In this document: piece by piece, positions 7,768 through 22,066 of the stretch
How the letters are laid out: every line of letters starts with the position of its first letter
How positions within the stretch are numbered: position 1 is the first letter of the stretch
Virus record (IMG/VR): IMGVR_UViG_3300033992_000528
Location: 1-30,775 of that record
From: a virus
DNA length: 30,775 bases
Direction: 5' to 3' (one strand)
Program-made: the position numbers and the translations under genes
The notes under the pieces: generated by a model
What the model was told of the DNA's origin: nothing
The model's input: only the letters and a program-made list of their open reading frames with translations
Databases searched by the model: none

Positions 7768-8030
7768 AACAAGAAATAAAAGACTTTGTTATTGGATTCC
7801 TTTACACATTCTCGAATAATGCAAAAGGTAATTCAGCACGTAAAACAACGGCGTTTGCGCTTATGTTATGCGTGGGTTGGGTACATTATAGCTATTTGTC
7901 AATTGACACGGCTGCAAGCATTTTGTTAATTGATTTGTCATTCGTTGCCCTATTGCTAGGGATTGTCACGGCTCAAAATTTGATTGAATTAAAACTTGGT
8001 AAAAAAGAAAAAACATGCGAAAAAGATTAA
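7764..8030 (+). CDS. Holin-like two-helix membrane protein
   Basis: 88 residues with two hydrophobic segments (about 29-44 and 50-72) and a charged C-terminal tail KLGKKEKTCEKD, the size and layout of a class II holin. Holins open the inner membrane and release the lysin at the end of infection. The start overlaps the coiled-coil gene and its end overlaps the phosphoesterase start by 16 bases. Confidence 0.6.
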   Translation: MKQEIKDFVIGFLYTFSNNAKGNSARKTTAFALMLCVGWVHYSYLSIDTAASILLIDLSFVALLLGIVTAQNLIELKLGKKEKTCEKD

Positions 8031-9215: not shown

Positions 9216-9243
9216 TCTTATTTTCAGCTACTTAGATAGGTTT

Positions 9244-9257
9244 GTTAAATTTTTAAC
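9244..9257. promoter_or_regulatory. Near-palindromic operator-like site GTTAAATTTTTAAC
   Basis: GTTAAAT TTTTAAC is a 14-bp palindrome with one central mismatch. Perfect copies occur at 17131-17144 and 20657-20670. All three lie 52-53 bp before a TAnnTTTG box, so the placement is conserved. Binding protein unknown. Confidence 0.65.
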
Positions 9258-9285
9258 ATAATAAATTGAAAATAATTTAATTTAG

Positions 9286-9318
9286 TTGCACCTAATTAAA
9301 ATAATGTTTGTATATTTG
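9286..9318 (+). promoter_or_regulatory. Bacteroidota-type promoter, early region
   Basis: The -7 box TATATTTG (9311-9318) fits TAnnTTTG, with a TTG at 9286-9288 as a weak -33 element. The 30 bases 9289-9318 match 17176-17205 at 27 positions (core TAATTAAAATAA.GTTTG). It drives the early genes from 9345. Confidence 0.75.
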
Positions 9319-9344
9319 TCAGACAGAAACGAAAAAAATATATT

Positions 9345-9533
9345 ATGACAACAGTAGAAATTTACGCAAACAAAGACAACAGCAAAAAAATTTACATTAT
9401 CAAGGTTGTTAAACCAAACACAAAAAAAAGTTTATTTTTTCCACAAACCCCTGAAGGTAAAAGATTAAATTCTACTCTTTTTGTAAGAAAATACGATGCT
9501 GTAAACTTAGGTAGAATTTATTTAAACAATTAA
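9345..9533 (+). CDS. Small early hypothetical protein
   Basis: 62 residues, basic, starting MTTVEIYANKDNSKKIYIIK. It is the first gene behind the early promoter, with the leader motif ACGAAAAAAATATATT before the ATG that is repeated before two other genes (17241 and 17543). Predicted beta strands with a Lys-rich middle. No family recognised; first-early small proteins of phages often act on host functions, but that is only a guess. Confidence 0.6.
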   Translation: MTTVEIYANKDNSKKIYIIKVVKPNTKKSLFFPQTPEGKRLNSTLFVRKYDAVNLGRIYLNN

Positions 9534-9538
9534 AACTA

Positions 9539-9715
9539 ATGGAGAAACAAAAAAGAGGGGTAAAACCTAAAGAAGATCGAGACCAAATTAAAGAACGTTT
9601 GACAATATTCGTTGAAAAATGGAAGTCCAAAAAAATAGGTAAAGATCAAGCCAAGAAAATAGCATACACGGCAATTTCAAACGCCTGTAAAGAAAATCAA
9701 TTAAAAACAAATTAA
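9539..9715 (+). CDS. 58-residue basic helical protein
   Basis: Reads MEKQKRGVKPKEDRDQIKER and then helix-rich sequence to NQLKTN. It fills the space between two early genes, starts three bases after the upstream stop codon and ends one base before the next ATG, so it fits the operon without overlap. Highly Lys-rich, which suggests nucleic-acid contact. Function unknown. Confidence 0.55.
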   Translation: MEKQKRGVKPKEDRDQIKERLTIFVEKWKSKKIGKDQAKKIAYTAISNACKENQLKTN

Positions 9716-9716
9716 T

Positions 9717-10130
9717 ATGTCACCAGAAAAACAACTAATAAAAGAAATCAAAAAAATCGTGTACGAACATGAAGCCGACCCCGACCAAATTAATTCGGTG
9801 GTGATTCGATACCGCTTAGCAATTAGTAAAGTAACTAGAACCGAAGCAGAACATTTAATATATTGCGCTTGCATAGCTACAAATGCGGATGCTTACATCG
9901 TAATATCCAAAATTCGAAAAGCAACGGCCGTACGAGCTAGATATTTAGTTTGGAATCATATCAGAACTACAAAGCCTTCGATGTCGTTTAGACGAATTGG
10001 ATTAATTACAGGCGGTCACGATCACTCGACTGTTATGCACGGACTAGCAGCGTTAAATCAATGGCTGGAGTATGACAAAGAGATAATTGAGGAGTACAAA
10101 ATATTCAATAAATTACTAGCAGCATGTTAA
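9717..10130 (+). CDS. DnaA domain IV-like DNA-binding protein
   Basis: 137 residues with no ATPase domain. Residues about 70-118 match domain IV of the replication initiator DnaA: a helix (VRARYLVWNHIRT), then SMSFRRIG and the signature GGHDHSTVMH (99-108), where cellular DnaA has GGRDHSTVLH. The Asp-His-Ser/Thr core that contacts the DnaA box is kept; the Arg is His here. In host biology this domain binds DnaA boxes at the origin. A stand-alone copy may mark the phage origin, recruit or block host DnaA, or act as a regulator. The N-terminal 65 residues are helical and unassigned. Confidence 0.8.
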   Translation: MSPEKQLIKEIKKIVYEHEADPDQINSVVIRYRLAISKVTRTEAEHLIYCACIATNADAYIVISKIRKATAVRARYLVWNHIRTTKPSMSFRRIGLITGGHDHSTVMHGLAALNQWLEYDKEIIEEYKIFNKLLAAC

Positions 10131-10318
10131 ACAATTATCCCATCAATACTTTGATCAACAAAATCGAGGAATTGCAAAAGGAGCGAAAACGGATTAAGAA
10201 CTGTTTAGAGTGGTTTGAAGATGAAATGACCACACAGGCATACGAACGGATCGACACGCTTATTGATTCGCTCGAAACAGCGGTTAAATTATTGAGAGAG
10301 TTTACAGAATCAAATTAA
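10124..10318 (+). CDS. Small coiled-coil hypothetical protein
   Basis: 64 residues, almost fully helical with charged heptads (INKIEELQKERKRIKNCLEW). The start lies inside the end of the DnaA-like gene (overlap of seven bases), so they are co-translated. A short coiled-coil partner of the DnaA-like protein is possible but unproven. Confidence 0.6.
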   Translation: MLNNYPINTLINKIEELQKERKRIKNCLEWFEDEMTTQAYERIDTLIDSLETAVKLLREFTESN

Positions 10319-10329
10319 AAAATAGAGAT

Positions 10330-10830
10330 ATGAAACAAAAATTGATAGTAATTTTAATAGGTTTCAGCGTTTGTGTTTTATTCCTAAATTTTGAAACCAA
10401 GCCGCAACCGGTTATTGAAATAAATGTAATCGATCAAGTTGAAACTAAGTTTCTGAAAATTGACCGTGCAACAACATACAATCCTACTAAGTGGCAATGT
10501 GATGCCGATCCATTAACCACCGCCGACAATTCATTGATTGACGTTGAAAAATTAAAAGCCAATGAAATCAAATGGGTGGCACTTTCGAGGGATTTAATTT
10601 TAGATCCTTACCGAAATAGTTATTTTCCGCACAGGGGGCATTGGAACGGTTTATTTTCTTTCGGTGACACAATAGACGTTCGATCGGTTTCAAGCCCTCA
10701 GATCAACGGCAAATGGGTTGTGCGTGATTGCATGAATGCTAGGTACAAAAATAGTATTGACTTTCTTTTGGATAGCCAAAGCAATAAACCGAAGCTAGGG
10801 CTTTGCAAAGATTTAATAATTAAGCTATGA
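10330..10830 (+). CDS. 3D-domain (double-psi beta barrel) exported protein
   Basis: 166 residues. An N-terminal hydrophobic segment (6-20, IVILIGFSVCVLFL) is a signal peptide or anchor. Residues about 46-150 match the 3D domain: RATTYNPTKWQCDADPLTTA, WVALSRDLI, GDTIDV, and WVVRDCMNARYKNSIDFLL with the conserved Asp. The fold is that of RlpA/MltA-type cell-wall lytic transglycosylase domains. It may act on peptidoglycan or be a host-envelope factor. It is oddly placed among early genes, away from the lysis cassette. Activity is inferred from the fold. Confidence 0.7.
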   Translation: MKQKLIVILIGFSVCVLFLNFETKPQPVIEINVIDQVETKFLKIDRATTYNPTKWQCDADPLTTADNSLIDVEKLKANEIKWVALSRDLILDPYRNSYFPHRGHWNGLFSFGDTIDVRSVSSPQINGKWVVRDCMNARYKNSIDFLLDSQSNKPKLGLCKDLIIKL

Positions 10831-10898
10831 AAGTAAAACGATTCCACAGGATTAGGACGGGGTTTTGGCTATTCATGGAATGGCTACTATTGCAATAG
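10827..10898 (+). CDS. Possible 23-residue membrane-active peptide
   Basis: An ATG overlapping the stop of the previous gene (ATGA) opens MKVKRFHRIRTGFWLFMEWL plus three residues. The basic start followed by a hydrophobic Trp/Phe helix looks like a tiny membrane peptide. Translational coupling supports it, but the size leaves it uncertain. Confidence 0.35.
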   Translation: MKVKRFHRIRTGFWLFMEWLLLQ

Positions 10899-10942
10899 CA
10901 AAAAAAAAGTTAGATTTTTATTAGTACATTAGAATTAATTTG

Positions 10943-10950
10943 TATATTTG
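10943..10950 (+). promoter_or_regulatory. -7 promoter box TATATTTG before the modification module
   Basis: A TAnnTTTG box in an AT-rich stretch. The expected transcription start, about seven bases on, falls right at the first stem of the structured leader (10957). No palindrome of the GTTAAAATTTTAAC type lies upstream. Confidence 0.6.
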
Positions 10951-10956
10951 TAGTAT

Positions 10957-11048
10957 AGTTACTGGTCTGACAATAAAGTAACTCAAGGAATTATTAACAA
11001 GCCTTGCAATGAATTGAGAAGTCAGACCCTCAAGGATTTGCAAGGCTT
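10957..11048 (+). ncRNA. Structured leader RNA with two hairpins and complementary loops (element 1)
   Basis: Hairpin 1: AGTTAC (10957-10962) with GTAACT (10978-10983). Its 15-base loop holds GGTCTGAC (10964-10971). Hairpin 2: AAGCCTTGCAA (10999-11009) with TTGCAAGGCTT (11038-11048), 11 perfect pairs, followed by a T tract as in a terminator. The loop of hairpin 2 holds GTCAGACC (11021-11028), a perfect complement of the hairpin 1 loop. So loop-loop pairing (kissing or pseudoknot) of eight pairs is possible. CTCAAGGA also occurs twice (10982-10989, 11029-11036), which allows alternative folds. The element lies 20 bases before the first gene of the module and may control termination or translation. 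Confidence 0.7.
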
Positions 11049-11068
11049 TTTTAATTTAATTAAATAAT

Positions 11069-11329
11069 ATGAACATTTTAGAAAAAGCAAATGAGATAGT
11101 AAATCTAAGATCAGAAGAAAAAGAAAGATATTACGGTCCTTTTGAAGAAGGAATGGCTAAAGCAGCCAAAATTGCATCTCTTATGTCTTCTAAGGACATA
11201 ACTACTGTTGACATGTATAATTGTATGATTGCGTTAAAACTATCAAGACAGTCATACAGCAATAAAGAGGATAATCTACTTGATGCAGTAGCTTATATAG
11301 GTAGTTTAAACAATACAATAAATAAATAA
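11069..11329 (+). CDS. DUF6378-like protein
   Basis: 86 residues. The pattern R.EEKERYYGPFEEGMAKAAKI, then ITTVDMYNCMIALKLSRQSY and DNLLDAVAYIG, matches phage proteins of the DUF6378 type: all-alpha, with conserved YG, an IT..D..... LK.SR block and a final Asp. These accompany nucleotide-metabolism genes in phages and resemble small MazG-like helical proteins, though the family has no assigned reaction that I know. It is the first gene after the structured leader and uses almost only AGA for arginine, like the rest of the module. Confidence 0.65.
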   Translation: MNILEKANEIVNLRSEEKERYYGPFEEGMAKAAKIASLMSSKDITTVDMYNCMIALKLSRQSYSNKEDNLLDAVAYIGSLNNTINK

Positions 11330-11330
11330 T

Positions 11331-12290
11331 ATGAAAAAAATAGGAATGATAGGGGTTATTTCTAACCCTGTTAAAAGTAACAATTCTCATAATGGTGGAT
11401 GGACTTATGTTTGTAAAGCTATTTTAGAAAATAAATTTAATAGCAAAATAGATATACTAAATGAAACAGATGATTGGAATAATTACAGTAATTTAATAAT
11501 AAATGAAGGGGTTAACTATAAAATTGGAGTTTACAACTTTTTTGGTGGGGTATCTGATAAGACTATAGTTAAATTACTTAAACTAAAAGATTTTAAAGGT
11601 CAAGTTTTATGTATAAATGAAATAATAGACTACAATGATATGTGTAAAAAAAGAAAAGAATTAATAGAATATAGAAATTTAAATTTTAATATACCTGAAG
11701 TAATAGAATTGGATAAATTATCTAACTATTTAGTTCTTGGTGATAGTCATTCTTTATCCGTGTTTAAACCTGAATATTGCATATCAAGAAATGATGGTAA
11801 AACACTACATGGTTTTCTTAAAGAAGGAATTAAATATTACATTCATGATTCAGTTAGCAAATTAGTCTTTTACGCTGGAAATATAGATATTAGATTTCAT
11901 GTAATTAAATATGGAATAGAATCAATTGATAATATGATTTTAGAATTAGAATCTCAGTTAAAAAATCTAAAGATAAAAGATATATCTTTAGTAGAATTGT
12001 TGCCTATAGAAAATGAAAGTAGAAAAATACCAGGAACAGGAAAGTTTAATGGATCTAACTTTAACGGAACTAGATTAGAAAGATTGGAAATGGCAATTCA
12101 TTTTAACAAAATGATCAATATGATTGCTAACAATAATAACTGGAAAGTTTTAAAATGGAATTTTAATTATCAAGAAGAATTAAGTTTTGATAATATGGAA
12201 GCAAAACAATCAGTTCATTTAAGGCCAACATCATATATGTTTGCTAATGATTTTATAAATATAGAAACTAAAAATTTATTCTCATGTTAG
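11331..12290 (+). CDS. SGNH/GDSL-hydrolase-like protein of the modification module
   Basis: 319 residues. From about residue 133 three blocks resemble SGNH hydrolases: LGDSHS (136-141) with a candidate nucleophile Ser, AGNIDIRFH (182-190) in place of the G-x-N-D block, and a late His in SVHLRP (294-299). Between them lies an unusual conserved-looking loop, ENESRKIPGTGKFNGSNFNG. Residues 1-125 form a separate alpha/beta part I do not recognise. SGNH enzymes cleave or transfer acyl esters. In this operon it could act on a base side chain or its precursor, but this is inference. It overlaps the next gene by seven bases, so the module is translationally coupled. Confidence 0.55.
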   Translation: MKKIGMIGVISNPVKSNNSHNGGWTYVCKAILENKFNSKIDILNETDDWNNYSNLIINEGVNYKIGVYNFFGGVSDKTIVKLLKLKDFKGQVLCINEIIDYNDMCKKRKELIEYRNLNFNIPEVIELDKLSNYLVLGDSHSLSVFKPEYCISRNDGKTLHGFLKEGIKYYIHDSVSKLVFYAGNIDIRFHVIKYGIESIDNMILELESQLKNLKIKDISLVELLPIENESRKIPGTGKFNGSNFNGTRLERLEMAIHFNKMINMIANNNNWKVLKWNFNYQEELSFDNMEAKQSVHLRPTSYMFANDFINIETKNLFSC

Positions 12291-13192
12291 AAGTATTTAA
12301 AACATATTACTCTAAAGCTAAAATGATGCAAGAGTTAAAGTACAAAGGCTTTAATTGGACTAAAGAAGATATTAATGATGACTTGATATGGAATGTCCCT
12401 ATATATGATGTAGTTAATAGAAGATATGCTGCATTTAGCTCTTTGTTAGAAGCTATAAAATATAAAGAAAATGACCCTAAAGATAACGGAATTTATTTTA
12501 ATAGTTTACAAGAAACAATTACAGATGAAAACTTTATTAAGTTATGTTATTTATTCAGATTGTGTGGCTCAGGAATTAATTATAAGCATAAAAAAGAAGA
12601 TCAAGAACCTTTTGGAACACATGGTTTTGGTAACTTCTGGATTGTTGAAGAATTAAAAAAAGGATGTTCATTTTATGAAGATTGGATTTCATGTATACCT
12701 GAGAATAAATTCTGTGATGTTAAAGGTTATTTACTGCCTATGATTAAAGGAGGATTACGTAACTTTATTATAAATGAAAGTAAAGAACTAACAAACTATT
12801 TAATAGACTATGTTTATAATAATAAAGGATTAGGTATAAAACAAGTTGTTGATGAAGGTAATAGTTACTTAATGGAAAGAGGTTTTAAAAGACAGAATTT
12901 TGTTTTAACAGCTTTCGCGATGGACTTAGCTGAATATTTTCCTAATATAGTTGATAGAAATAGTGATACGTATATTGGTAGTAATGCTAAAAAATGTTTA
13001 AAAATGATATTACCAAATATGAAAACTGATGAAGCTCTTAGATTCTTATGTAAAGAAACTGGAAACAAATCAAAACCTTACGATATGGAAGATATAGCAT
13101 GTGATTTTATTAGATACTTAGATAATTTTCAATCAGAAGACCACATAAAAAATAATAATAACTTAAAATATAAAAACAATGTTTCTCAATAA
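12284..13192 (+). CDS. Alpha-glutamyl/putrescinyl-thymine pyrophosphorylase-like DNA base modification protein
   Basis: 302 residues, all-alpha. The motifs FRLCGSGINY (91-100), HGFGNFWIV (113-121), GFKRQNFVLTAFAMDLAEYF (200-219) and SNAKKCLK (233-240) recall the aGPT-PPlase (amino acid:DNA transferase) family, which is related to helix-hairpin-helix DNA glycosylases. In known phage pathways these enzymes replace the pyrophosphate on a 5-hydroxymethyl pyrimidine in DNA with an amino acid or polyamine. Its neighbours (PLP enzyme, thymidylate-synthase-fold enzyme) are those expected for such a pathway. The identification is by memory of the motifs and by context; clade cannot be told. Confidence 0.7.
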   Translation: MLEVFKTYYSKAKMMQELKYKGFNWTKEDINDDLIWNVPIYDVVNRRYAAFSSLLEAIKYKENDPKDNGIYFNSLQETITDENFIKLCYLFRLCGSGINYKHKKEDQEPFGTHGFGNFWIVEELKKGCSFYEDWISCIPENKFCDVKGYLLPMIKGGLRNFIINESKELTNYLIDYVYNNKGLGIKQVVDEGNSYLMERGFKRQNFVLTAFAMDLAEYFPNIVDRNSDTYIGSNAKKCLKMILPNMKTDEALRFLCKETGNKSKPYDMEDIACDFIRYLDNFQSEDHIKNNNNLKYKNNVSQ

Positions 13193-14072
13193 ACAAATAG
13201 GTTCAGAAAACAAAGATCTTTTAAATGGTAAAAATCTAGAATATTATTTAGAACTAACTAAAAATTTTCAAAGTAGTTTTCAAGATTTTGTAGTAAAAGA
13301 AGTAAATGGATTCTTTGTAATAGATGAATCAGTTTCTAATCCAGTAGGTGCTAAAGCAAGATTTGGTGAATTATTAATGCAATTAAACACTAAGAAAGAG
13401 ATAGTTTATGTACAACCAAGGAAAGGATTTGCAGGTATTAGTTTATCTTATCTTTGTAAAAAATACAATAAAGATTTAACTTTAGTCATGCCTTCTAGTG
13501 CTAAAGCTTCTGAGCATCAAAGATTATGTATTGAATATGGAGCCAAAGCTTTATTTGCTAGAATAGCTGCTATGCCTAATGCTGGTTTAATAGCTAAAAA
13601 ATACGCAGCAAAAAGAGATGCTTTATTTATTCCTTTAGGTTTGCAACATGAATTAGTTACTGCTTGTGCTGTAAGAAGTGTTTATGATTTTTTTAAAGAC
13701 AAAGAGAAACCTAAAAAAATGTGGTGTGTCATATCAACAGGTGTTTTATCCAGAGCTTTGCAAATAGCACTTCCAGATACTGAATTTGTAAATGTTGCTG
13801 TAGCTAGAAATATTCATCAAGGAGAATTAGGCAGAGCTAAGTTTATTAGTTACCATAAACCTTTTAACGCTAAATCTGATTTGATACCTACAGAGTTTAA
13901 CTGTGAATCAACTTACGATGCTAAAGGATGGGATTACCTTAATAAATATGGTGAAAAAGGCGATTGGTTTTTTTCTGTAGCTGGAGATTCGGACAAAACA
14001 ACAATACCAGAAAGCAGCATTGATAGTTATAGAGATTGGAACGACTTAAAAGACTTTAAAGATGAGATTTAA
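13179..14072 (+). CDS. PLP-dependent fold-type-II lyase-like enzyme
   Basis: 297 residues resembling cysteine synthase/threonine dehydratase-type enzymes. SNPVGAKARFGE (53-64) gives Lys59 as the probable Schiff-base lysine. VMPSSAKASEHQRLCIEYGA (103-122) matches the usual P....K...... GA helix, and VISTGVLSRAL (184-194) takes the place of the phosphate-binding Gly loop. The usual S/T-x-GN motif after the lysine domain is RKGFAGISL (81-89), so the Asn that contacts PLP in typical members is absent. Phages with modified thymine use PLP enzymes to trim an added amino acid to an aminoalkyl group. A role of that kind fits here. It overlaps both neighbours by 11-14 bases. Confidence 0.65.
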   Translation: MFLNKQIGSENKDLLNGKNLEYYLELTKNFQSSFQDFVVKEVNGFFVIDESVSNPVGAKARFGELLMQLNTKKEIVYVQPRKGFAGISLSYLCKKYNKDLTLVMPSSAKASEHQRLCIEYGAKALFARIAAMPNAGLIAKKYAAKRDALFIPLGLQHELVTACAVRSVYDFFKDKEKPKKMWCVISTGVLSRALQIALPDTEFVNVAVARNIHQGELGRAKFISYHKPFNAKSDLIPTEFNCESTYDAKGWDYLNKYGEKGDWFFSVAGDSDKTTIPESSIDSYRDWNDLKDFKDEI

Positions 14073-14697
14073 TAATGCGACAGAAGCTTTTGAGAAGCTT
14101 TATAGTGAAGTAAATTCTTCAGGTAAAATAACTAAATATACCAAAGCTATTTTTAATATAGGTTTCTATATAGATAATCCTTTAGATAGAATTATAACTA
14201 CAGATTATAGAAATTTTAATAGTGATTATGCTGAGTTTGAATGGCAATGGTACTTATCAGGAAACGCAGATGCAACTGAAATAGCTAAGAAAGCAAAGAT
14301 ATGGTATAAATGCATGGATCAGAATGGATATGTAAATTCGAACTATGGTTACCAATGGAATAAAGGTAAACAACTTGATTATGTGATTAATGAATTAATT
14401 AAGAATAAAGATTCAAGAAGAGCATCCATTTCTATTTATGATGCAAAAGATAGGTATAATTTCGAGAATGATACTCCTTGTACTTATGCTATTAACTTTA
14501 GGATTTTAGATGATAAGTTAAATATGTCAGTTATGATGCGTTCTAACGATCTCTGGTACGGTTTTGCTAACGATCAATATTGTTTCTCAAAACTACAAGA
14601 GTTAGTAGCTAACAGGTTAGATATAAAAGTAGGATCTTACTTCCACTTTGTTAATGATTTACATTTATACAATAATTTTTTAAATAAAAACAAATGA
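14062..14697 (+). CDS. Thymidylate-synthase-fold pyrimidine hydroxymethylase-like enzyme
   Basis: 211 residues against 264 for E. coli thymidylate synthase. Key residues are present: Glu60 in EFEWQWYLSG, RR (119-120), catalytic Cys140 in DTPCTYA, RSND (160-163), Gly167, and HLY (201-203). The family makes dTMP, 5-hydroxymethyl-dUMP or 5-hydroxymethyl-dCMP using folate. An ungapped alignment puts Asp171 (in GFAND, 167-171) at the site that is Asn177 in E. coli TS; Asp at this site is the hallmark of T4-type dCMP hydroxymethylase. A one-residue gap would place Asn170 there. So the substrate is uncertain, uracil or cytosine. The operon supports a hydroxymethylase rather than plain dTMP synthesis. 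Overlaps both neighbours. Confidence 0.75.
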   Translation: MRFNNATEAFEKLYSEVNSSGKITKYTKAIFNIGFYIDNPLDRIITTDYRNFNSDYAEFEWQWYLSGNADATEIAKKAKIWYKCMDQNGYVNSNYGYQWNKGKQLDYVINELIKNKDSRRASISIYDAKDRYNFENDTPCTYAINFRILDDKLNMSVMMRSNDLWYGFANDQYCFSKLQELVANRLDIKVGSYFHFVNDLHLYNNFLNKNK

Positions 14698-14933
14698 AAG
14701 CAGTAGTTAAATCAATAATAGGTCCTTATGATGGACCATTTGAAAAAAACATAATTACTTACAAACTAAGTATTGGATTAAATGAAATAGTATGGCATGA
14801 AAATGGCTATCGACCAATGAATAACTTAGATATAAAAGTAGGAGACGTTTTAAGTGGCTTAGTTTTAAATGGAAATAAGCCTAATTATAATAAATCAATA
14901 ATAGTAAACACACAATTAAAATTACAATTATGA
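14694..14933 (+). CDS. 79-residue orphan protein of the modification module
   Basis: Starts MKAVVKSIIGPYDGPFEKNI and is predicted to be mostly beta strand, possibly a small barrel, ending LKLQL. The ATG overlaps the upstream stop (ATGA) and the end overlaps the next start, so it is a fixed part of the operon. No family recognised. Its position between the hydroxymethylase-like and MazG-like genes hints at a folate- or nucleotide-related helper, but nothing in the sequence shows this. Confidence 0.6.
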   Translation: MKAVVKSIIGPYDGPFEKNIITYKLSIGLNEIVWHENGYRPMNNLDIKVGDVLSGLVLNGNKPNYNKSIIVNTQLKLQL

Positions 14934-15235
14934 AAATGGAAAATGAATTCCAACCTATAAGGGATTGGGCAGAAGCAAAAGGTATTTTTGCTAAAGGTGA
15001 TATAAAAACGCAGTATATTAAATTGCAAGAAGAAGCTGGAGAACTAGCAAAAGCAATTATAAAAGACGACAAAGATGAGTTTATAGATGCTTTAGGCGAT
15101 TGTACCATAGTATTGGTTAACTTAGCTAAATTGGGTGGTTATAACTTAGAAGATTGTATAAATTCTGCCTATAGTGTAATAGCTAAAAGAACTGGAAAAA
15201 TGGAAAATGGAACTTTTGTAAAAAATATAATATGA
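14930..15235 (+). CDS. MazG-like nucleotide pyrophosphohydrolase
   Basis: 101 residues, the size of a single MazG-like all-alpha NTP pyrophosphatase. The metal-binding pattern is visible: Glu34/Glu35/Glu38 in LQEEAGELAKA and Glu50, Asp53, Asp57 in DEFIDALGD. Such enzymes hydrolyse (d)NTPs to monophosphates. In phages with altered DNA bases a dNTP pyrophosphatase often removes the normal nucleotide (for example dCTP or dUTP/dTTP) from the pool or feeds the hydroxymethylase with dNMP. That fits its place as last gene of this module. Confidence 0.75.
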   Translation: MKMENEFQPIRDWAEAKGIFAKGDIKTQYIKLQEEAGELAKAIIKDDKDEFIDALGDCTIVLVNLAKLGGYNLEDCINSAYSVIAKRTGKMENGTFVKNII

Positions 15236-15277
15236 AAGAATATATTTTAAAAATTAATTGATAATAAAATATTTAAT

Positions 15278-15285
15278 TAATTTTG
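15278..15285 (+). promoter_or_regulatory. -7 promoter box TAATTTTG before the replication region
   Basis: A TAnnTTTG match in very AT-rich DNA, with TTG at 15258-15260 as a possible -33 element. The first hairpin of the second structured leader begins 11 bases later, as it does 7 bases after the box at 10943. Confidence 0.5.
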
Positions 15286-15295
15286 TAATAAATAA

Positions 15296-15377
15296 AGTAA
15301 CGTCGAACTTACTAAAAAATTTTATTAAAAGCTCTATTTCTTAATGCCTTTCGACGTGGCTAGAGAGATAGGGCTTT
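15296..15377 (+). ncRNA. Structured leader RNA with two hairpins and complementary loops (element 2)
   Basis: Hairpin 1: AGTAA (15296-15300) with TTACT (15309-15313), loop CGTCGAAC. Hairpin 2: AAAGCTCTATTTCT (15328-15341) with AGAGATAGGGCTTT (15364-15377), 14 pairs of which two are G-U. Its loop contains TTCGACG (15350-15356), the complement of the hairpin 1 loop. The order and spacing of the parts match element 1 (10957-11048) while the paired sequences differ, which is compensatory evidence for a real RNA fold. It lies 19 bases before the next gene. The T tract after hairpin 2 is broken (ACTTTTAAATT), so a terminator role is less clear here. Confidence 0.65.
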
Positions 15378-15396
15378 ACTTTTAAATTATGTAAAA

Positions 15397-16248
15397 ATGG
15401 CTAAAGAACTACCATATTTTAAATTTGAACCTAATCAGTGGGAAAATGGCAATATTCAAATTTTGACTAGAGATCAAAAAGGTTTATTTATAGACCTGTG
15501 CAGTATTTATTGGTCACGTGTTGGAGAATTGTCTCACAAATTAGCTATTCAAAAATTATGCAACGGCAATGCGACCGCATTAGATTTGCTTTACGAAGAA
15601 CAAATAATTGAGGTTATTGAGGGTAATATTTTTATTAAATTTTTATCTGAACAATTAAATGAATTTGAAGATAAGAACAAACAGAACTCAATAAACGCAA
15701 AAGAGGGGTGGCAAAAACGACGTAAACAAAAGGAAAAATGCGATAGCAATGCCACCGCGTCAATTCCGCAATGCGAAAACGATGGCATAATAGAATATAA
15801 TATAAAAGAAGATAATATAAGAAAAGATAATAAATCTCTTAAAAAAGAAAAAACAGAAAAAGTTTTTTCAGAGGATATTAAATTAATTTATGAAAAGTCA
15901 CTTTCTTTTTTTTCTGAAAATTTACACCCTAAAAATCCAAACGACTGGATGAAGTGTATTGACGAATTAATTAGAATCGATAAAATACCAGCCGAAATAA
16001 TTTTAGAAGCAACACAAAGGGCGCGCTCGGATTCTTTTTGGAATGAAAACTTTTTATCGTTAACCAAGTTAAGAAAAAAAAATCCAGAAGGAATACAATA
16101 CATAGTCGTATTTTATGAAAAATTTTTAAAACAAAAACAAAATGGAATCAATAAAACAAATAATGGCAAAGGAGTTACAGACGACGAACTTGCAAGAACG
16201 CTCCATGAGCATTTTATCAAGCAACGAGAGCAGAACGGTTCTAATTGA
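15397..16248 (+). CDS. Phage replication initiator-like protein (winged-helix N-terminus)
   Basis: 283 residues. The first 100 residues (ELPYFKFEPNQWENGNIQIL, then RDQKGLFIDLCSIYWSR) resemble the DUF1376/replisome-organiser N-terminal domain, which forms a winged helix that binds the phage origin. The middle (about 105-155) is Lys/Asn-rich linker. The C-terminal part (about 160-283) is helical and may contact the host helicase or loader. It follows a dedicated promoter and structured leader. There is no P-loop, so it is not a helicase. It overlaps the next frame by 107 bases. Confidence 0.6.
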   Translation: MAKELPYFKFEPNQWENGNIQILTRDQKGLFIDLCSIYWSRVGELSHKLAIQKLCNGNATALDLLYEEQIIEVIEGNIFIKFLSEQLNEFEDKNKQNSINAKEGWQKRRKQKEKCDSNATASIPQCENDGIIEYNIKEDNIRKDNKSLKKEKTEKVFSEDIKLIYEKSLSFFSENLHPKNPNDWMKCIDELIRIDKIPAEIILEATQRARSDSFWNENFLSLTKLRKKNPEGIQYIVVFYEKFLKQKQNGINKTNNGKGVTDDELARTLHEHFIKQREQNGSN

Positions 16249-16732
16249 TAAACAAAGTCATTTTGAAATTAGTTGTTTTGGTGGTGAAATGTCTGAAACG
16301 AATCAGTTAAAAGAGGTAGCAAATGTAAAATTAGCTTTTCCTGCGCTTCCAAATGGATTTTATTTGATTTTATTGGATCGAGTTAGAGAATTGAAAATTA
16401 GTGATGAACGCTTGAAATTTGCGGTTGGCCATGTGATTGACAATTGTGAATACCCATCACCAACTATTGCGCAATTTATCGGATTTGATCGTAAAATCAA
16501 ACTCTACAATCAACAGCAAATTTTGAAAATGAATGATGATGTACAAGGCATTGGTAAATTTTACAAATTAGTTCGGTTAATCGGTCAAAGTAAACCTCTC
16601 TACGCTCACGAATCAGATATTGAAAAATATAAACTAGAACTTTGGTCAACATGTCCAAAGTGTAAAAATTTAACCGCACAATTTAATCACTTGCAAGGTA
16701 AACGGAATTGCGCTTGTGGTGAAATGTGGTAA
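16142..16732 (+). CDS. Hypothetical replication-region protein with C-terminal zinc ribbon
   Basis: 196 residues. The body (about 60-120, FYLILLDRVRELKISDERLK and PSPTIAQFIGFDRKIKLYN) is helical and resembles a helix-turn-helix-like block of Bacteroidota mobile-element replication proteins. The end has four cysteines, CPKC (176-179) and a CACG close to the C-terminus, a zinc ribbon. The ATG at 16142 has an A-rich leader but makes a 107-base overlap with the upstream gene; ATG at 16163 or 16207 would shorten it. A helicase-loading or primosome partner is a reasonable guess. Confidence 0.5.
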   Translation: MESIKQIMAKELQTTNLQERSMSILSSNESRTVLIDKQSHFEISCFGGEMSETNQLKEVANVKLAFPALPNGFYLILLDRVRELKISDERLKFAVGHVIDNCEYPSPTIAQFIGFDRKIKLYNQQQILKMNDDVQGIGKFYKLVRLIGQSKPLYAHESDIEKYKLELWSTCPKCKNLTAQFNHLQGKRNCACGEMW

Positions 16733-16749
16733 AAATAAACAAATAAATT

Positions 16750-17082
16750 ATGTCATTACAAATTCATTTTAAAACAAAGTACGATTTATTTTTAGAATCA
16801 AAAAATTACGAAGTATCATTTAGCTGGATTGATGGTTTTTTGTTTTATGAGTTATTTACTCAATTATCAATTTTAAAGCCGTCAGATCAACAAAAAAATA
16901 TTGCTTGGGACAATGCTAAAAAAACGTGGAAAGATTGGTATATGCCTACTGAAAACAACCCACGACCAAACAAGCTAAGATTTATTAACCAATCCAAACA
17001 TTTACTATTAAAAGATTTTGTTTTTTGCATGGCCGAAGACTTTGATTTTTCTAATGAAGTTATGGAAAAATTAGGATTATAA
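16750..17082 (+). CDS. Hypothetical protein of the replication region
   Basis: 110 residues, aromatic-rich, starting MSLQIHFKTKYDLFLESKNY. Contains helices with TWKDWYMPTENNPRPNKLRF and ends MEKLGL. No recognised family, no membrane segment. It begins 17 bases after the zinc-ribbon gene and is the last gene before the second palindrome-promoter region. Confidence 0.55.
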   Translation: MSLQIHFKTKYDLFLESKNYEVSFSWIDGFLFYELFTQLSILKPSDQQKNIAWDNAKKTWKDWYMPTENNPRPNKLRFINQSKHLLLKDFVFCMAEDFDFSNEVMEKLGL

Positions 17083-17130
17083 AAAAATATTAATTTATTT
17101 TCAAACATAACTAATTGACTTTCAGCAAGT

Positions 17131-17144
17131 GTTAAAATTTTAAC
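17131..17144. promoter_or_regulatory. Perfect palindrome GTTAAAATTTTAAC, operator-like
   Basis: 14-bp perfect palindrome, 53 bp before the -7 box at 17198. The following ten bases (ATAATATTTA) are also similar to those after the site at 9244. Likely binding site of a dimeric regulator, probably an activator or UP-type contact because of its distance. Confidence 0.7.
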
Positions 17145-17175
17145 ATAATATTTAAAAAATAACGTTATTTAATGA

Positions 17176-17205
17176 CACTTAATTAAAATAAAGTTTGTAG
17201 ATTTG
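17176..17205 (+). promoter_or_regulatory. Bacteroidota-type promoter, copy of the 9289-9318 promoter
   Basis: -7 box TAGATTTG (17198-17205). The segment CACTTAATTAAAATAAAG at its start matches the promoter at 9289-9318 with 27 of 30 identities overall. Drives the gene at 17241 and the recombination genes after it. Confidence 0.75.
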
Positions 17206-17240
17206 TTCAAACGAAATTAAACAACTAAAAAAAATACATT

Positions 17241-17453
17241 ATGAAAACGCCAGAATATTTTATCACAAACAAAAAAGTTTACGCAGGACATTACGATGTT
17301 ACAGTTACCGATACGATGAATAATATAGAAGTCACCTATACCGAAAAAGACATGGATTTAATCGATATTATTAATGACGAGGCAAATTATGATTCTGATG
17401 AGGCTTGGACCGCTACTCAAAAAATTATTGCTAATTCAGGAATCGAAAATTAA
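17241..17453 (+). CDS. Small acidic hypothetical protein
   Basis: 70 residues, acidic (many Asp/Glu), starting MKTPEYFITNKKVYAGHYDV. Predicted beta strands first, then a helix (EAWTATQKIIANSG). First gene behind the 17198 promoter, with the same type of A-rich leader (ACTAAAAAAAATACATT) as genes at 9345 and 17543. Small acidic early proteins can be DNA mimics or host inhibitors, but no motif shows this. Confidence 0.6.
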   Translation: MKTPEYFITNKKVYAGHYDVTVTDTMNNIEVTYTEKDMDLIDIINDEANYDSDEAWTATQKIIANSGIEN

Positions 17454-17467
17454 ACAACTTTAGTTTA

Positions 17468-17519
17468 CCAAACCCACCCCCGTAACGACACTTTAAGAGA
17501 GTGGTTCGACGGGGTTTGG
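17468..17519 (+). other. Long stable hairpin between two early genes
   Basis: Left arm CCAAACC (17468-17474) then CCCCGT (17478-17483), CGA, CACT; right arm AGTG (17500-17503), TCG, ACGGGG (17509-17514), TTTGG (17515-17519). The seven-base loop is 17493-17499. Small internal loops break a stem of about 18 pairs. There is no T tract, so it is not a standard terminator. It lies 23 bases before the ATG of the next gene and could be an RNA-processing or stability element. Confidence 0.6.
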
Positions 17520-17542
17520 AGGTTAAACGAAAAAAATACATT

Positions 17543-17755
17543 ATGAAAGATTTAAAAAACATCCAACCGAATTGGGAAAGTTCAAAGGTTTGGCACGTAA
17601 AAGATGGTGAGTTTACAGACGAATTTTATGCCTGTGATATTGAGGATCGAGATTTAAAATTAACCGTTCAAATATTTGCACCAACTACCGAAAGTCTAAA
17701 CGATTACAGAGATTTTTTATTAAATGCATTATTAACTAGAAACGAAAACAAATAA
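17543..17755 (+). CDS. Small hypothetical protein
   Basis: 70 residues starting MKDLKNIQPNWESSKVWHVK. A GTG at 17501 would extend the frame into the hairpin, but the ATG at 17543 has the A-rich ACGAAAAAAATACATT leader seen before two other genes, so I use it. Beta-rich with an acidic middle (FYACDIEDRDLKLTVQIF). It directly precedes the recombination pair, three bases upstream. No family recognised. Confidence 0.6.
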   Translation: MKDLKNIQPNWESSKVWHVKDGEFTDEFYACDIEDRDLKLTVQIFAPTTESLNDYRDFLLNALLTRNENK

Positions 17756-17758
17756 ATT

Positions 17759-18235
17759 ATGTCAAAAACACACTTTAAAAAGCTACGCAATCCAGACTAT
17801 TTAGGATCATGGGATTTGATAGATGAAAATGGAACGGTTAAAAATAGAGCGTTCACCATTACAGGAGTAAAAAAAGAGATGGTTCACGATGGTAAAGGGG
17901 GTAAAGACGAATGCGTTGCCGTATCGTTTGAAGGATCAAAGCCTATGATTATGAATAGCACGAATTTAAAAACAACGGCTAAGATCATGGATTCGCCTTT
18001 TATTGAGGATTGGATCGGTAAAAAGATCGAGATCACAATTGAGAAAGTAAAAGCATTCGGCGAGATTCATGATGCTTTGAGAGTGGTTAAAACTAGCTTT
18101 GTTTTGACACCGCTTCACCCGAAATGGGCAAGCGCAAAAGATTCAATCAGCAAAGGGCTGGTAAAAATAGAACAAATTAAAAAACAATACACGCTTTCAG
18201 AAGCGGACGAAAAACTATTGACAAATGGAAATTAA
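17759..18235 (+). CDS. Phage OB-fold protein paired with the YqaJ nuclease
   Basis: 158 residues. The opening HFKKLRNPDYLGSWDL and the later GGKDECVAVSFEGSKPMIMN and IGKKIEITIEKVKAFGE segments match a family common beside YqaJ exonucleases in Bacteroidota phages; the strand pattern fits an OB fold. It is probably a single-strand-binding or annealing partner in phage recombination. Its last bases overlap the nuclease gene by 11. The exact role is inferred from neighbour and fold; it is not a RecT or Erf type by sequence. Confidence 0.6.
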   Translation: MSKTHFKKLRNPDYLGSWDLIDENGTVKNRAFTITGVKKEMVHDGKGGKDECVAVSFEGSKPMIMNSTNLKTTAKIMDSPFIEDWIGKKIEITIEKVKAFGEIHDALRVVKTSFVLTPLHPKWASAKDSISKGLVKIEQIKKQYTLSEADEKLLTNGN

Positions 18236-18851
18236 GGAATTTAAAATTAGATGCTCAGCGATTGGCAAGATAATGACTAATCCAAGATCAAAAACTGAAA
18301 CACTTTCAGAAACGACAAAAAGCTATTTAGAGGAATGGCTAAAACAAGAACTATACGGAACACGTAAAGAAATCAATTCAAAGTACCTATCAAAGGGCTT
18401 AGAAGTGGAAGCGGCGGCAGCGGATTACTATACAACCGAGAGAGGTTTAGGATTCATTTTGCAGAACATGGATCACTTTGAAAATGACTATTTCACGGGA
18501 ACGCCTGACTTACTTTTGGCAGATGAAGTAATTGAGATGAAAGCTAGCTGGGATTGTTTTACCTTTCCTTTATTCGACAACGAACCAGACAAAGGGTATT
18601 GGATGCAAGCGAACGGATACATGCACCTAACAGGAAAGAAAAAAGCCAAGCTAGTGTTCACGCTTCAAAATACGCCTGATGAATTGGAATACAATGAGCC
18701 TGTTTCATACGATCATTTGCCTAGTAATTTACGGATAAAAGAATTTGAGTTTAATTATGACGAGGAATTTATCAATGAAGTGATCGAGCGTGTGAAACTT
18801 TGCCGTGACTATATCCAATCTTTAATCATTCAAATCGAATCTAAGCCATGA
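18225..18851 (+). CDS. YqaJ-family (lambda exonuclease-like) recombination nuclease
   Basis: 208 residues of PD-(D/E)xK type. GLEVE (58-62), GTPDLLL with Asp95, EMK (104-106) and Gln128 in YWMQANGYM form the active site. Enzymes of this family digest one strand from double-stranded ends to start single-strand-annealing recombination. It forms a pair with the OB-fold protein just upstream, with overlap. This pair probably matures or repairs phage concatemers and promotes module exchange with other phages. Confidence 0.85.
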   Translation: MEIKEFKIRCSAIGKIMTNPRSKTETLSETTKSYLEEWLKQELYGTRKEINSKYLSKGLEVEAAAADYYTTERGLGFILQNMDHFENDYFTGTPDLLLADEVIEMKASWDCFTFPLFDNEPDKGYWMQANGYMHLTGKKKAKLVFTLQNTPDELEYNEPVSYDHLPSNLRIKEFEFNYDEEFINEVIERVKLCRDYIQSLIIQIESKP

Positions 18852-19060
18852 ATAAACTAATTTACGACAACGAAATTGATGAGGTGAATGAAATCGCCTT
18901 AATACTTGACGGATTGATTAAACACGAGGATAAGGACAAAATCAATAACCTTATTTCAAAAATCGAATTACTTGATAGTTTGGTGGACCGTTTGAAGGTC
19001 ATTCAGTCAAGCAAATTAACACACGGGTTTTGTCCGTGTTGTGGCAAAAGAGAAAATTAA
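18848..19060 (+). CDS. Small coiled-coil protein with C-terminal zinc knuckle
   Basis: 70 residues. A helical body (about 1-57) and a C-terminal CPCC motif in HGFCPCCGKREN. The start overlaps the nuclease stop (ATGA). With only one CxxC pair visible, zinc would be shared by a dimer. Function unknown. Confidence 0.55.
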   Translation: MNKLIYDNEIDEVNEIALILDGLIKHEDKDKINNLISKIELLDSLVDRLKVIQSSKLTHGFCPCCGKREN

Positions 19061-19081
19061 TAATAAACAAATCTAAAAAAC

Positions 19082-19291
19082 ATGGAAACTAAATTTATCA
19101 AATTACCTAGTCAGGTTGCAGCACAAATAGAATTGGAAGTTCAAAACACGTTTAACCGCATTCCGTACGTTTCACACGCAATATCAGAACGTCATTGGAT
19201 GAATGAGTTGCAAGAGCAAAAAGCGATAGCATGGTTTAGGGAGCAAGAACTATTAACACAAATCGAACAACTTAAAAGACAGATTAGATGA
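19082..19291 (+). CDS. Small helical hypothetical protein
   Basis: 69 residues starting METKFIKLPSQVAAQIELEV. It ends in a coiled coil (EQELLTQIEQLKRQIR). Start overlaps nothing upstream; the end overlaps the next gene by four bases. Unrecognised. The row of genes from 18848 to 19992 is a run of short early proteins. Confidence 0.5.
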   Translation: METKFIKLPSQVAAQIELEVQNTFNRIPYVSHAISERHWMNELQEQKAIAWFREQELLTQIEQLKRQIR

Positions 19292-19500
19292 CACCAAAAG
19301 AAAAAGCACAAGAGTTAGTAGATAAAATTTATAATTACACAGTGGATGTTTTTATATTAAGCACATCATTAGAATGTTCTAAACAATGCGCACTAATTGC
19401 AGTAAATGAGATAATAACCGCATTGGATGAACATCAATGGCAAAACAGAAATGTGATTGAATTTTATTTTTCTGTTAAACAAGAAATTGAAAAGTTATGA
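19288..19500 (+). CDS. Small hypothetical protein
   Basis: 70 residues starting MTPKEKAQELVDKIYNYTVD, with a cysteine pair in LECSKQCALIAVNEI. Mostly helical. This start (MTPKEKAxELVxK) is a pattern I recall from many Bacteroidota phage early proteins of unknown function. It overlaps both neighbours by four bases, so it is coupled to them. Confidence 0.55.
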   Translation: MTPKEKAQELVDKIYNYTVDVFILSTSLECSKQCALIAVNEIITALDEHQWQNRNVIEFYFSVKQEIEKL

Positions 19501-19703
19501 AACAAACAGCAGTAGAATGGTTGGTTAAGGAATTTGATTTGACCTCACAATCTGAAATAATAAAAAATGTAGTTGAACAAGCAGAAGAAATGTTTAAGGA
19601 TCAGATCATGGATGCTTTTTACGAAGGTATGAATTGCCAGAACTTTGATCCGAATAAAGGGAGGTCAGAAATATACTACGATGAAATGTTTAAAACGAAA
19701 TAA
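19497..19703 (+). CDS. Small acidic hypothetical protein
   Basis: 68 residues starting MKQTAVEWLVKEFDLTSQSE, helical and acidic. The MKQTAVEWL opening is common to small early proteins of Bacteroidota phages. The region EEMFKDQIMDAFYEGMN is a predicted helix. Its function is not known. It overlaps its upstream neighbour by four bases. Confidence 0.55.
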   Translation: MKQTAVEWLVKEFDLTSQSEIIKNVVEQAEEMFKDQIMDAFYEGMNCQNFDPNKGRSEIYYDEMFKTK

Positions 19704-19704
19704 T

Positions 19705-19992
19705 ATGAGAAGTTACAAAAAAGAATTAGAAGTGATTGCAGGCGATTTGTTGAATCAAAACGCTTCTGCAAAAGGTAATGAGAATAAGCCGAACTATTCT
19801 AATCGTGATTTTATGAATGCTATAATTATTTTTCAAACGGCATTGATGGATAAAATGTTTGATAATCAAAATTATGATGGTATGGAACTTGATGATCGCA
19901 TGAAAATGACACAAAGTTGTGGAATGGAATTACGCAAGTTAATACATACCTACACAGGTTTAGACACTCACAAAATCGAGGAGTTTCTTTAG
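19705..19992 (+). CDS. Small hypothetical protein
   Basis: 95 residues from the ATG at 19705 (MRSYKKELEVIAGDLLNQNA), one base after the previous stop. An upstream in-frame codon extension to 19645 would overlap the preceding gene and is less likely. Helical, with MNAIIIFQTALMDKMFDNQN. It ends 22 bases before the 5' edge of the integron-like cassette. Unrecognised. Confidence 0.5.
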   Translation: MRSYKKELEVIAGDLLNQNASAKGNENKPNYSNRDFMNAIIIFQTALMDKMFDNQNYDGMELDDRMKMTQSCGMELRKLIHTYTGLDTHKIEEFL

Positions 19993-20014
19993 GGTTGCTT
20001 GACATTAGGTGCTG

Positions 20015-20383
20015 TTATAAGCCGTTTTTAATCAAATTGTTATGAACATAAAATTAGATTTAAGTAAATTTTCCCTTCGAGAATTAATCGAAATGAAAAA
20101 AGAAGTTGATAAGCATTTGAAATTTAAAATGTTTGAGGATAAAATAAGGATAGACCATTGCGATATTTCAGCACGAGCATACAACTCATTGAATTTTAAT
20201 GGTATTTTTTATCTTGAAGATTTGGCAAAAATGTCAATAAAAGAGTTTTCAGAATTAAAGAATGTCGGGAAATATACTGTGTCAGAATGTACTGAAATAT
20301 TAGAAGTTCACGGAATGAATTGGCGTTCTTAAATGGCTTATAACACAAAAGTAAGCATCCGTTATAATTGTGCTTACTGACTG
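20015..20383 (+). mobile_element. Integron-like gene cassette, 369 bp
   Basis: The left edge reads G|TTATAAGCC (20014-20023). Just after the gene, GGCTTATAAC (20335-20344) is its exact ten-base complement, and a second G|TTATCCGC follows at 20383. In integron cassettes the 3' R'' box complements the 5' end of the same cassette, and the gene is tightly enclosed, as here: ATG 27 bases in, stop 2 bases before the R'' box. There is no matching attC upstream, so it may be a single insertion at a secondary GTT site. No integrase is in the window. Confidence 0.5.
20042..20332 (+). CDS. RNA polymerase alpha C-terminal-domain-like protein
   Basis: 96 residues. Residues 42-94 align with the alpha subunit C-terminal domain (alpha-CTD) of bacterial RNA polymerase: ISARAYNSLNFNGIFYLEDL then SELKNVGKYTVSECTEIL. 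In E. coli numbering Arg265 and Asn268 correspond to Arg45 and Asn48, and the NLGKKS loop to NVGKYT (74-79). These contact the DNA minor groove at UP elements. Residues 1-40 are a helical extension, not the alpha dimer domain. The protein could redirect or block alpha-CTD contacts at promoters, or be an unrelated helix-hairpin-helix DNA binder. It is the only gene of the integron-like cassette. Confidence 0.75.
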   Translation: MNIKLDLSKFSLRELIEMKKEVDKHLKFKMFEDKIRIDHCDISARAYNSLNFNGIFYLEDLAKMSIKEFSELKNVGKYTVSECTEILEVHGMNWRS

Positions 20384-20391
20384 TTATCCGC
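20335..20391 (+). repeat. attC-like recombination site
   Basis: R'' GGCTTATAAC (20335-20344), 5-base spacer, L'' AGTAAGCA (20350-20357), 13-base loop, L' TGCTTACT (20371-20378), 4-base spacer, R' GTTATCCGC (20383-20391). The arms and unpaired spacers match the geometry of a folded attC site at about its minimum length. A hairpin TCCGCT/AGCGGA (20387-20406) overlaps the right end. Confidence 0.5.
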
Positions 20392-20439
20392 TGTTTTAAT
20401 AGCGGAACATATTTTAAACAATTTAAAAACAAATAAGAT

Positions 20440-20661
20440 ATGAAAGTAAATCAAATAATATTAGGCGCACCAGCGATACCAGCTTATATGAAGTTTAACG
20501 TTGATGGTTATTTATTTGGAAGGAACACTAGGCAATGTCCTAAACCGTTCGAGCATTGGACGGAATTACAATTTATAGCTAAGTCAGGCGGTGTTTACCA
20601 TGTGATCGGTAACGGTGACAAAGTGTTAATCGTTTCGATTCAGATGAAAGACAACTGTTAA
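20440..20661 (+). CDS. Small hypothetical protein
   Basis: 73 residues starting MKVNQIILGAPAIPAYMKFN, beta-rich, with one CPKPFEHW motif and a final Cys. Its stop codon lies inside the palindrome at 20657-20670, so gene end and operator overlap. It may be a small OB- or SH3-like barrel. No family recognised. It starts 57 bases after the cassette edge. Confidence 0.5.
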   Translation: MKVNQIILGAPAIPAYMKFNVDGYLFGRNTRQCPKPFEHWTELQFIAKSGGVYHVIGNGDKVLIVSIQMKDNC

Positions 20662-20670
20662 AATTTTAAC
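20657..20670. promoter_or_regulatory. Perfect palindrome GTTAAAATTTTAAC, third copy
   Basis: Identical to 17131-17144. It overlaps the stop codon of the preceding gene, and lies 52 bp before the -7 box at 20723. A further half-site-like TTTTTAAC occurs at 20682-20689. A palindrome kept inside a stop codon suggests selection on the DNA site itself. Confidence 0.65.
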
Positions 20671-20722
20671 ACCTTAGCAAATTTTTAACGTATTAATTTA
20701 TTGTTGATTGTGTTGGAATAGG

Positions 20723-20730
20723 TATATTTG
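20723..20730 (+). promoter_or_regulatory. -7 promoter box TATATTTG
   Basis: TAnnTTTG match, preceded by a TTG at about 20702-20704 as possible -33 element. The box starts 22 bases before the ATG at 20745. Third promoter with the upstream palindrome, but its core differs from the two 30-bp copies. Confidence 0.65.
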
Positions 20731-21634: not shown

Positions 21635-22066
21635 TTGACCGTAGAAGTGCAATATTACAGCCACATTCTCAAGTGTTCACGCTACTTTGATAGGGTGAAC
21701 TTTCAAGACTTGGCTCAAAATGTTTGTGTTCGGTTAATTGAAAACAGATTAAAAGCAGTAGAAGTAGAGAGAGAGGGTAAAATTAAAGCGTATATTTTTA
21801 TTATCGCTAAAAATGAATACCTGGCCGAAAGGATTCAAAGCACAATTGATTTAGATTCGATTCAGGTTGTTGATGAATTGGAGTTTGATTATAAAAAGGA
21901 ACTTGAAGATTTGATAATTGAAAAGAAATTGCCTTTTATTGATCGCCTTTGGGTGGAAGCCTTTTTAAGTAGAGATTTGAATGCGAGCTGGCTTCAAAGT
22001 GATTTAAAGATTGGTCGGCATTGTGCCAAAAGAAGATTAAAACACGTAATTGATAAATTGAAATGA
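21635..22066 (+). CDS. RNA polymerase sigma-factor-like protein
   Basis: 143 residues. VNFQDLAQNVCVRLIENRLK (21-40) and the following IKAYIFIIAKNEY recall sigma region 2 (core binding and -10 recognition). The C-terminal LWVEAFLSRDLNASWL and KIGRHCAKRRLKHVIDKL resemble the helix-turn-helix of region 4. It is shorter than ECF sigma factors (about 160-190), and the regions are diverged. The only start available is TTG at 21635; no Met lies inside. It may direct host RNA polymerase to late genes such as terminase and tail genes just downstream, as phage sigma-like proteins do. Confidence 0.6.
   Translation: MTVEVQYYSHILKCSRYFDRVNFQDLAQNVCVRLIENRLKAVEVEREGKIKAYIFIIAKNEYLAERIQSTIDLDSIQVVDELEFDYKKELEDLIIEKKLPFIDRLWVEAFLSRDLNASWLQSDLKIGRHCAKRRLKHVIDKLK

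Follow-up and report, generated by a model that had tools for sequence, protein, structure and literature searches.

Sites of class I CRP-type activators are centred near -61.5, -71.5 or -81.5. Here we describe a 16-bp palindrome that stands at a comparable, fixed distance before three promoters in a viral DNA, IMG/VR record IMGVR_UViG_3300033992_000528. The window is this record itself, 30,775 bases, and its three promoters, presumed to be early from gene content, are called P1, P2 and P3 by position. The E. coli CRP class I sites, as generally known, share with the palindrome a 5-6-5 layout (TGTGA-N6-TCACA against TGTTA-N6-TAACA), and those of the CRP/FNR family have centres near -61.5 and -71.5, one helical turn apart. 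However, one base is changed in each half-site, so that the CRP consensus TGTGA-N6-TCACA is absent, the promoters are of the Bacteroidota -7/-33 type and not sigma-70, and no CRP-family protein could be linked to the palindrome.

Two other systems invite comparison. UP elements, such as those of T4 early promoters and Mu Pm, are likewise upstream AT-rich DNA aiding phage promoters, but the dyad described here is strict and lies further upstream. The classical UP region covers about -38 to -59; the palindrome lies outside it, and the DNA in between looks AT-rich. The Rex operator, TTGTTAANNNNTTAACAA (a string that did not occur in the papers listed by the literature search), has a core of the same form, TGTTAA-N4-TTAACA. 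Rex, however, is a repressor that usually sits over promoters, and the outer T/A pair is not conserved as a pair at P1-P3.

For the promoter itself the reference is Flavobacterium johnsoniae, where the -7 element spans T-12 to G-5, 4-5 nt before the start site, and G is nearly absent at -10 and -9 (PMC6847099). On this F. johnsoniae start-site scale the palindromes at P1-P3 would be centred at -71.5/-72.5, as in a class I site, and extend from about -65 to -79, clear of the -7 and -33 elements. The literature searched, mostly at the level of search listings, yielded no account of an activator acting at promoters of Bacteroidota phages from a defined site.

Three promoters with a palindrome at a fixed distance

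An earlier note on this DNA had placed a palindrome at 9244, 17131 and 20657, one copy mismatched, each 52-53 bp before a TAnnTTTG box. Its coordinates hold: the 14-mer occupies 9244-9257 (one mismatch), 17131-17144 and 20657-20670 (both exact), and the gaps to the box are 53, 53 and 52 nt (Table 1). Because a T and an A flank every copy, we regard the palindrome as 16 bp long rather than 14 (TGTTAAAWTTTTAACA; the three copies have the form TGTTAAA[AT]TTTTAACA), with gaps of 52, 52 and 51 nt. The search of the entire record that the note had proposed returned no copy with up to one mismatch beyond the three promoters. Two further copies with two mismatches (22264 and 25867) have no TAnnTTTG box of the window list at the P1-P3 distance; the nearest downstream boxes on the + strand are at 22453 (176 nt) and 25925 (45 nt), the latter within an open reading frame (ORF), 25570-26130.

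With up to two mismatches the 14-mer has 5 matches against 1.48 expected, and 3 of 100 shuffles reach 5, so that in DNA this rich in A and T the palindrome taken alone stands out only mildly. Nor do the boxes on their own say much (62 in the window, 48 expected). The unusual feature is the palindrome combined with the fixed distance to the box; of 200 windows simulated with a first-order Markov model, one contained a three-copy palindrome family and none a family with fixed spacing to TAnnTTTG. Folded as hairpins, the palindromes reach -2.5 to -4.2 kcal/mol and are followed by no T-run, unlike intrinsic terminators.

P1 and P2 are copies of one cassette. The 27 of 30 bases reported as common to 9289-9318 and 17176-17205 were found again, and the likeness extends to a 98-nt direct repeat at 77% identity. 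The P3 core differs from both, and all three have in common only the palindrome, the box and the distance between them. At P3 the palindrome does overlap a stop codon, as had been remarked, the TAA that ends ORF 20440-20661. P2 may need help, because its box has the G that is disfavoured at -10 in F. johnsoniae.

Table 1. Coordinates of the promoter elements, neighbouring genes and RNA-like element in the window
Feature	Position	Strand	Remarks
Intrinsic terminator just 5' of P1	9182-9214	+	Hairpin and T-run; -14.5 kcal/mol fold
P1 palindrome	9243-9258		TGTTAAATTTTTAACA; one broken pair
P1 copy of duplicated promoter cassette	9243-9340	+	98 nt; 77% identity to 17130-17227
P1 -7 box	9311-9318	+	TATATTTG
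Genes after P1	9345-10830	+	Two small ORFs, DnaA domain IV-like protein, Mu Gam-like protein, 166-aa ORF
DnaA domain IV-like protein	9717-10130	+
Mu Gam-like protein (weak)	10124-10318	+
RNA-like element	10954-11057	+	About 100 nt, just after TAnnTTTG box at 10943; covariation
P2 palindrome	17130-17145		TGTTAAAATTTTAACA
P2 copy of duplicated promoter cassette	17130-17227	+	98 nt
P2 -7 box	17198-17205	+	TAGATTTG, G at -10; TATATTTG in L038 and L162
Genes after P2	17241-19060	+	Include lambda-exonuclease-like protein (18225-18851)
Free-standing RNA polymerase alpha C-terminal domain (alpha-CTD)-like protein (P0001)	20042-20332	+	PF03118, E 3.9e-12
P3 palindrome	20656-20671		TGTTAAAATTTTAACA; overlaps stop codon 20659-20661
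Second half-site-like sequence at P3	20680-20689	+	AATTTTTAAC; identical in four aligned phages
P3 -7 box	20723-20730	+	TATATTTG
Genes after P3	20745-22066	+	101-aa ORF, DUF3127 protein, small ORF, weak sigma-region-2-like protein
Sigma-region-2-like protein (weak)	21635-22066	+	Shortly 5' of terminase genes

Conservation among related phages

We compared the window with 18 related records reached via portal, alpha-CTD or pattern matches, many of them fragments. The palindrome occurs with up to two mismatches in seven (G001-G007). P3 could be aligned in four phages (the window, L161, L162 and L197), and here none of the 16 palindrome columns varies, whereas the adjoining upstream coding DNA varies at 24 of 149 columns. 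Variable columns are also found in the spacer (6/51, mostly in its 3' half), the box (1/8), the leader (6/14) and the coding DNA downstream (33/172). At P2 the genes on the left-hand side vary among phages and the promoter block is kept. Core and palindrome are separable, since one relative (L212) has the same core promoter with the palindrome absent. When 15 phage records were screened for repeated 14-bp palindromes, this same sequence was selected in the window, G007 and G005, and it repeats in G156 too; the screen of diverged relatives gave no other repeated palindrome at promoters.

The same palindrome at a second distance in other phages

Viral contigs were scanned for the exact 14-mer followed by TANATTTG, a chosen filter on the box, at 20-50 nt (17 stretches) and at 50-80 nt (22 stretches). 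Rows lying within one open frame of at least 60 codons were set apart as coding; most of these are homologous ORFs, with gaps of 39, 63, 73 and 78 nt. Outside this phage group, the noncoding rows in which an ORF follows were grouped by eye into eight families, with gaps of 43/42 nt (L095/L105), 43 (L389), 43 (L392), 44 (L382/L385 with L399), 40 (L380), 53 (L394), 56 (L188/L191/L193) and 70 (L400). L399, where TANATTTG first appears at 66 nt, was placed with L382 for its identical cassette and a degenerate box at 44. Five of the eight families thus have a gap of 40-44 nt (p = 1.7e-4 for the preset window, 0.006 for any 5-nt window), ca. 10 nt or about one helical turn closer to the box than at P1-P3, and on the F. 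johnsoniae start-site scale these closer palindromes would be centred at -59.5 to -63.5.

In the L095/L105 family the promoter precedes an ERF gene (PF04404) and a relative (38%) of the window lambda-exonuclease, and so is the counterpart of P2, about one turn closer. Relatives of this exonuclease (32-33%) are also encoded by L382 and G156. We did not retain the idea of an ancient P2-specific site, against which stand the 78 other lambda-exonuclease loci treated below. L067, which has a homologue of the exonuclease that stands before P1, was not counted: its palindrome is 44 nt before a box but within the end of a 63-codon ORF. As a stand-alone, phage-wide motif the palindrome was rejected, for over at least 120 viral loci with GTTAAAATTTTAAC the boxes do not generally cluster 50-55 nt away from it.

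A proposed activator-type site and its alternatives

The shared dyad and its fixed distance point to a site at which a protein may bind to turn phage genes on. On balance we lean towards a candidate site of a dimeric helix-turn-helix protein acting as a class I-type activator. Such a site fits best: the spacing hardly changes between the three promoters, the palindrome stays the same amid changing surroundings, and other phages carry it ca. 10 nt closer, which may reflect a constraint to one face of the helix. In its favor too, the P3 core is unrelated to P1 and P2, yet palindrome and distance agree. The earlier note had proposed either an activator or a UP-type element near -65. The first part stands, the second is weakened by a strict, G/C-ended dyad upstream of the UP region, and the position was slightly off, the site covering the whole interval given above.

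A dimer bound ca. seven helical turns upstream of the start (centre about -72) would lie on the same DNA face as RNA polymerase and could help the host sigma-ABfr holoenzyme onto P1, P2 and P3. It would thereby jointly switch on the P1 operon of small and DnaA-like genes, the P2 recombination operon and the P3 operon leading into the sigma-like and terminase genes. In other Bacteroidota-type phages it would bind about one turn closer, with centres at about -61 to -63. We consider a host factor slightly likelier than one encoded by the phage, the same site being present in phages that have few or no genes in common with this one. It is conceivable, though we would put it well below an even chance, that one dimeric activator, most likely a conserved Bacteroidota host factor, serves apparently unrelated phages via TGTTAAAATTTTAACA at about -61 and -72.

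Several observations weigh against an activator. The palindrome was not found in 11 of the 18 related records, many of which are partial, and none of 78 other exonuclease loci (L302-L379, two close relatives left out) has it with up to two mismatches followed by a box at 0-70 nt. In the unselected set of at least 120 viral loci most copies have no nearby box. The clustering of gaps depends on few families, whose count by eye is a judgement: a terminator hairpin sits between palindrome and box in L389, the L394 palindrome was counted although it lies inside a 113-codon open frame, and with the dropped noncoding rows that lack a following ORF (L387, 22 nt; L395, 74; L406, 66) the proportion becomes 5 of 11. 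Nor do copies of the exact 16-mer in bacterial genomes concentrate at the phage gaps; one scan of a genome collection gave 41 stretches with a box at 34-58 nt, and the 18 counted genomes behind them have one or two exact copies apiece. Finally, no matching regulator or phage promoter was found in the literature searched, again mostly as search listings.

A repressor or silencer acting from upstream, by operator looping or alpha-CTD occlusion, would delay the operons or give immunity. Short, perfect dyads that recur within a genome are a typical form of phage operator, and P3 has the second half-site-like AATTTTTAAC, but the site is clear of the -7 and -33 elements, and the earlier note was right that it does not lie over the promoter. 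Moreover, looping does not require an equal distance to each box, the recognised genes of the window all read in the same direction, a divergent switch region being absent, and library scans of the window proteins revealed neither repressor nor integrase, many small ORFs being left without assignment. We consider this unlikely.

Still less likely, in our opinion, is a UP-type element, that is, AT-rich DNA to which the alpha-CTD of the host, or else the alpha-CTD-like protein of the phage, would bind directly with no separate regulator. The core AAAATTTT is AT-rich, and the window does encode an alpha-CTD-like protein, whose best solved relative is 4noi (4.2e-7) and which largely retains the SAR-YN and N-GK segments in alignment with a solved alpha subunit. 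However, UP elements require neither symmetry nor G/C ends, both of which the dyad has, and the palindrome lies upstream of the classical region. The alpha-CTD-like gene also occurs in L124, but the palindrome and box of P3 are retained in G004 (a 6.3-kb fragment), G005 and G007, none of which gave a PF03118 match, and in G005 the DNA around the gene is replaced. The phage protein was therefore rejected as a necessary reader of the site; because relatives keep the site without it, its gene appears to be dispensable and accessory.

A relic of copying is, we believe, improbable: P1 and P2 would be a duplicated cassette of which P3 acquired the same piece, the palindrome having no function of its own. 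The 98-nt repeat would fit, as would the core without palindrome in L212 and the different genes that flank the promoter blocks in relatives. Against this, P3 shares with P1 and P2 the palindrome, distance and box only, its palindrome is invariant while the surroundings vary, and independent phages carry the palindrome at a second, helically related distance.

Similar palindromes exist in possible hosts. In 299 genomes of Flavobacteriaceae, TGTTANAWWTNTAACA stood before a box 64 times, 37 of these at a gap of 55-58, and the reversed control 13 times; a wider motif in 70 genomes fell in the same class. Sixteen of 30 fetched loci precede genes that we take, from their sequence, to be lysA-, lysC- or asd-like, and at other loci short fragments that are dapA-like or aspartokinase-like match Pfam; at L419-L447 the box of lysA-, lysC- and asd-like genes has TGTTA-N6-TAACA plus TGT 55-58 nt upstream. 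This looks like a lysine-pathway regulon. Loci labelled Haliscomenobacter have the exact phage 16-mer 5' of an aspartokinase-like gene. At L229/L264 a 219-aa protein, P0004 (ACT-like by eye, with no Pfam match), is encoded beside an aspartokinase-like gene, and the palindrome, exact in L229, lies at the start of the former. A search of 118 Bacteroidota genomes for P0004 gave a match in 16; before the 11 of these genes that could be placed the motif is mostly another variant, and P0004 was not adopted as the lysine regulator of the site but left as a rival. That the phage took over the regulator of this host regulon is very improbable, for although host and phage sites are of one TGTTA-N6-TAACA class upstream of TAnnTTTG promoters, the phage gaps (51-52 and about 38-42 from the 16-mer) are at least half a turn off the host class, P1-P3 lack the TGT found 3 nt past the host palindrome, and near the ACT-like gene the motif is more often TGTTAYAWTTGTAACA in Flavobacteria-type loci; because distance and TGT differ, we keep it as a rival and not as the answer.

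Genes around the promoters and a structured RNA

The closest named portal matches are the Nonlabens phages P12024S/L (27%), and the host is therefore likely to be one of the Flavobacteriaceae. An exonuclease-like gene (8015-9103) and then the strong terminator precede P1. The P3 operon's sigma-region-2-like gene is followed by the terminase genes and is possibly a late-gene regulator; an L105 ORF (5245-5739) aligns with its product at 23%. Sequence searches among named phages gave no match for the sigma-like and DnaA-like proteins. A low-GC block (about 0.26-0.29) at 11069-15235 (+) contains DUF6378, a weak match to a PLP (pyridoxal phosphate) enzyme, a MazG-like protein and a homologue of thymidylate synthase, and may serve modified-nucleotide synthesis.

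The RNA-like element has three helices, one of which forms a pseudoknot: helix 2 has its arms in the loops of helix 1 and helix 3. The element terminates in a terminator-like helix with a T-run. Homologues were found in L139/L224, L334, L345, L323, L317, L377, L324, L368 and L341, and also in L378, L361, L312, L370, L216, L217, L218 and L212. Over 13 distinct sequences 304 of 304 cells are paired and 22 of 24 pairs have changed on both sides, a covariation score reached by none of 500 shuffles. Six of the eight pairs of the pseudoknot helix covary, and since this helix was absent from the search model its covariation was not built into the alignment. The element matched no Rfam family at E <= 1 and nothing in 296 Bacteroidota genomes under strict filters, a scan run with no positive control. 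The genes downstream differ among phages, and candidate roles for the RNA are those of an antiterminator, of a discrete small RNA and of an RNA linked to an origin. Proteins similar, by eye, to the DnaA domain IV-like one stand directly 5' of it in L334 (260-553) and L323 (420-827). Repeated TGCACTA/TAGTGCA words are found 5' of the box corresponding to 10943 in L213 (3100-3420, -) and L210 (11540-11877, -), and in L220 (reverse strand, 180-480) AGGTGCGAAA/TGCGCA repeats precede a similar box and then an apparent diverged copy of the RNA. These two sets of repeats are possible origin iterons beside the RNA.

Implications

A short dyad with what may be a strict turn-by-turn distance rule offers a handle on gene timing in the phages of a phylum that is prominent in the gut and the sea. 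If the reading of the dyad as the site of a conserved host activator is true, one host protein would time phage operons across phage families.

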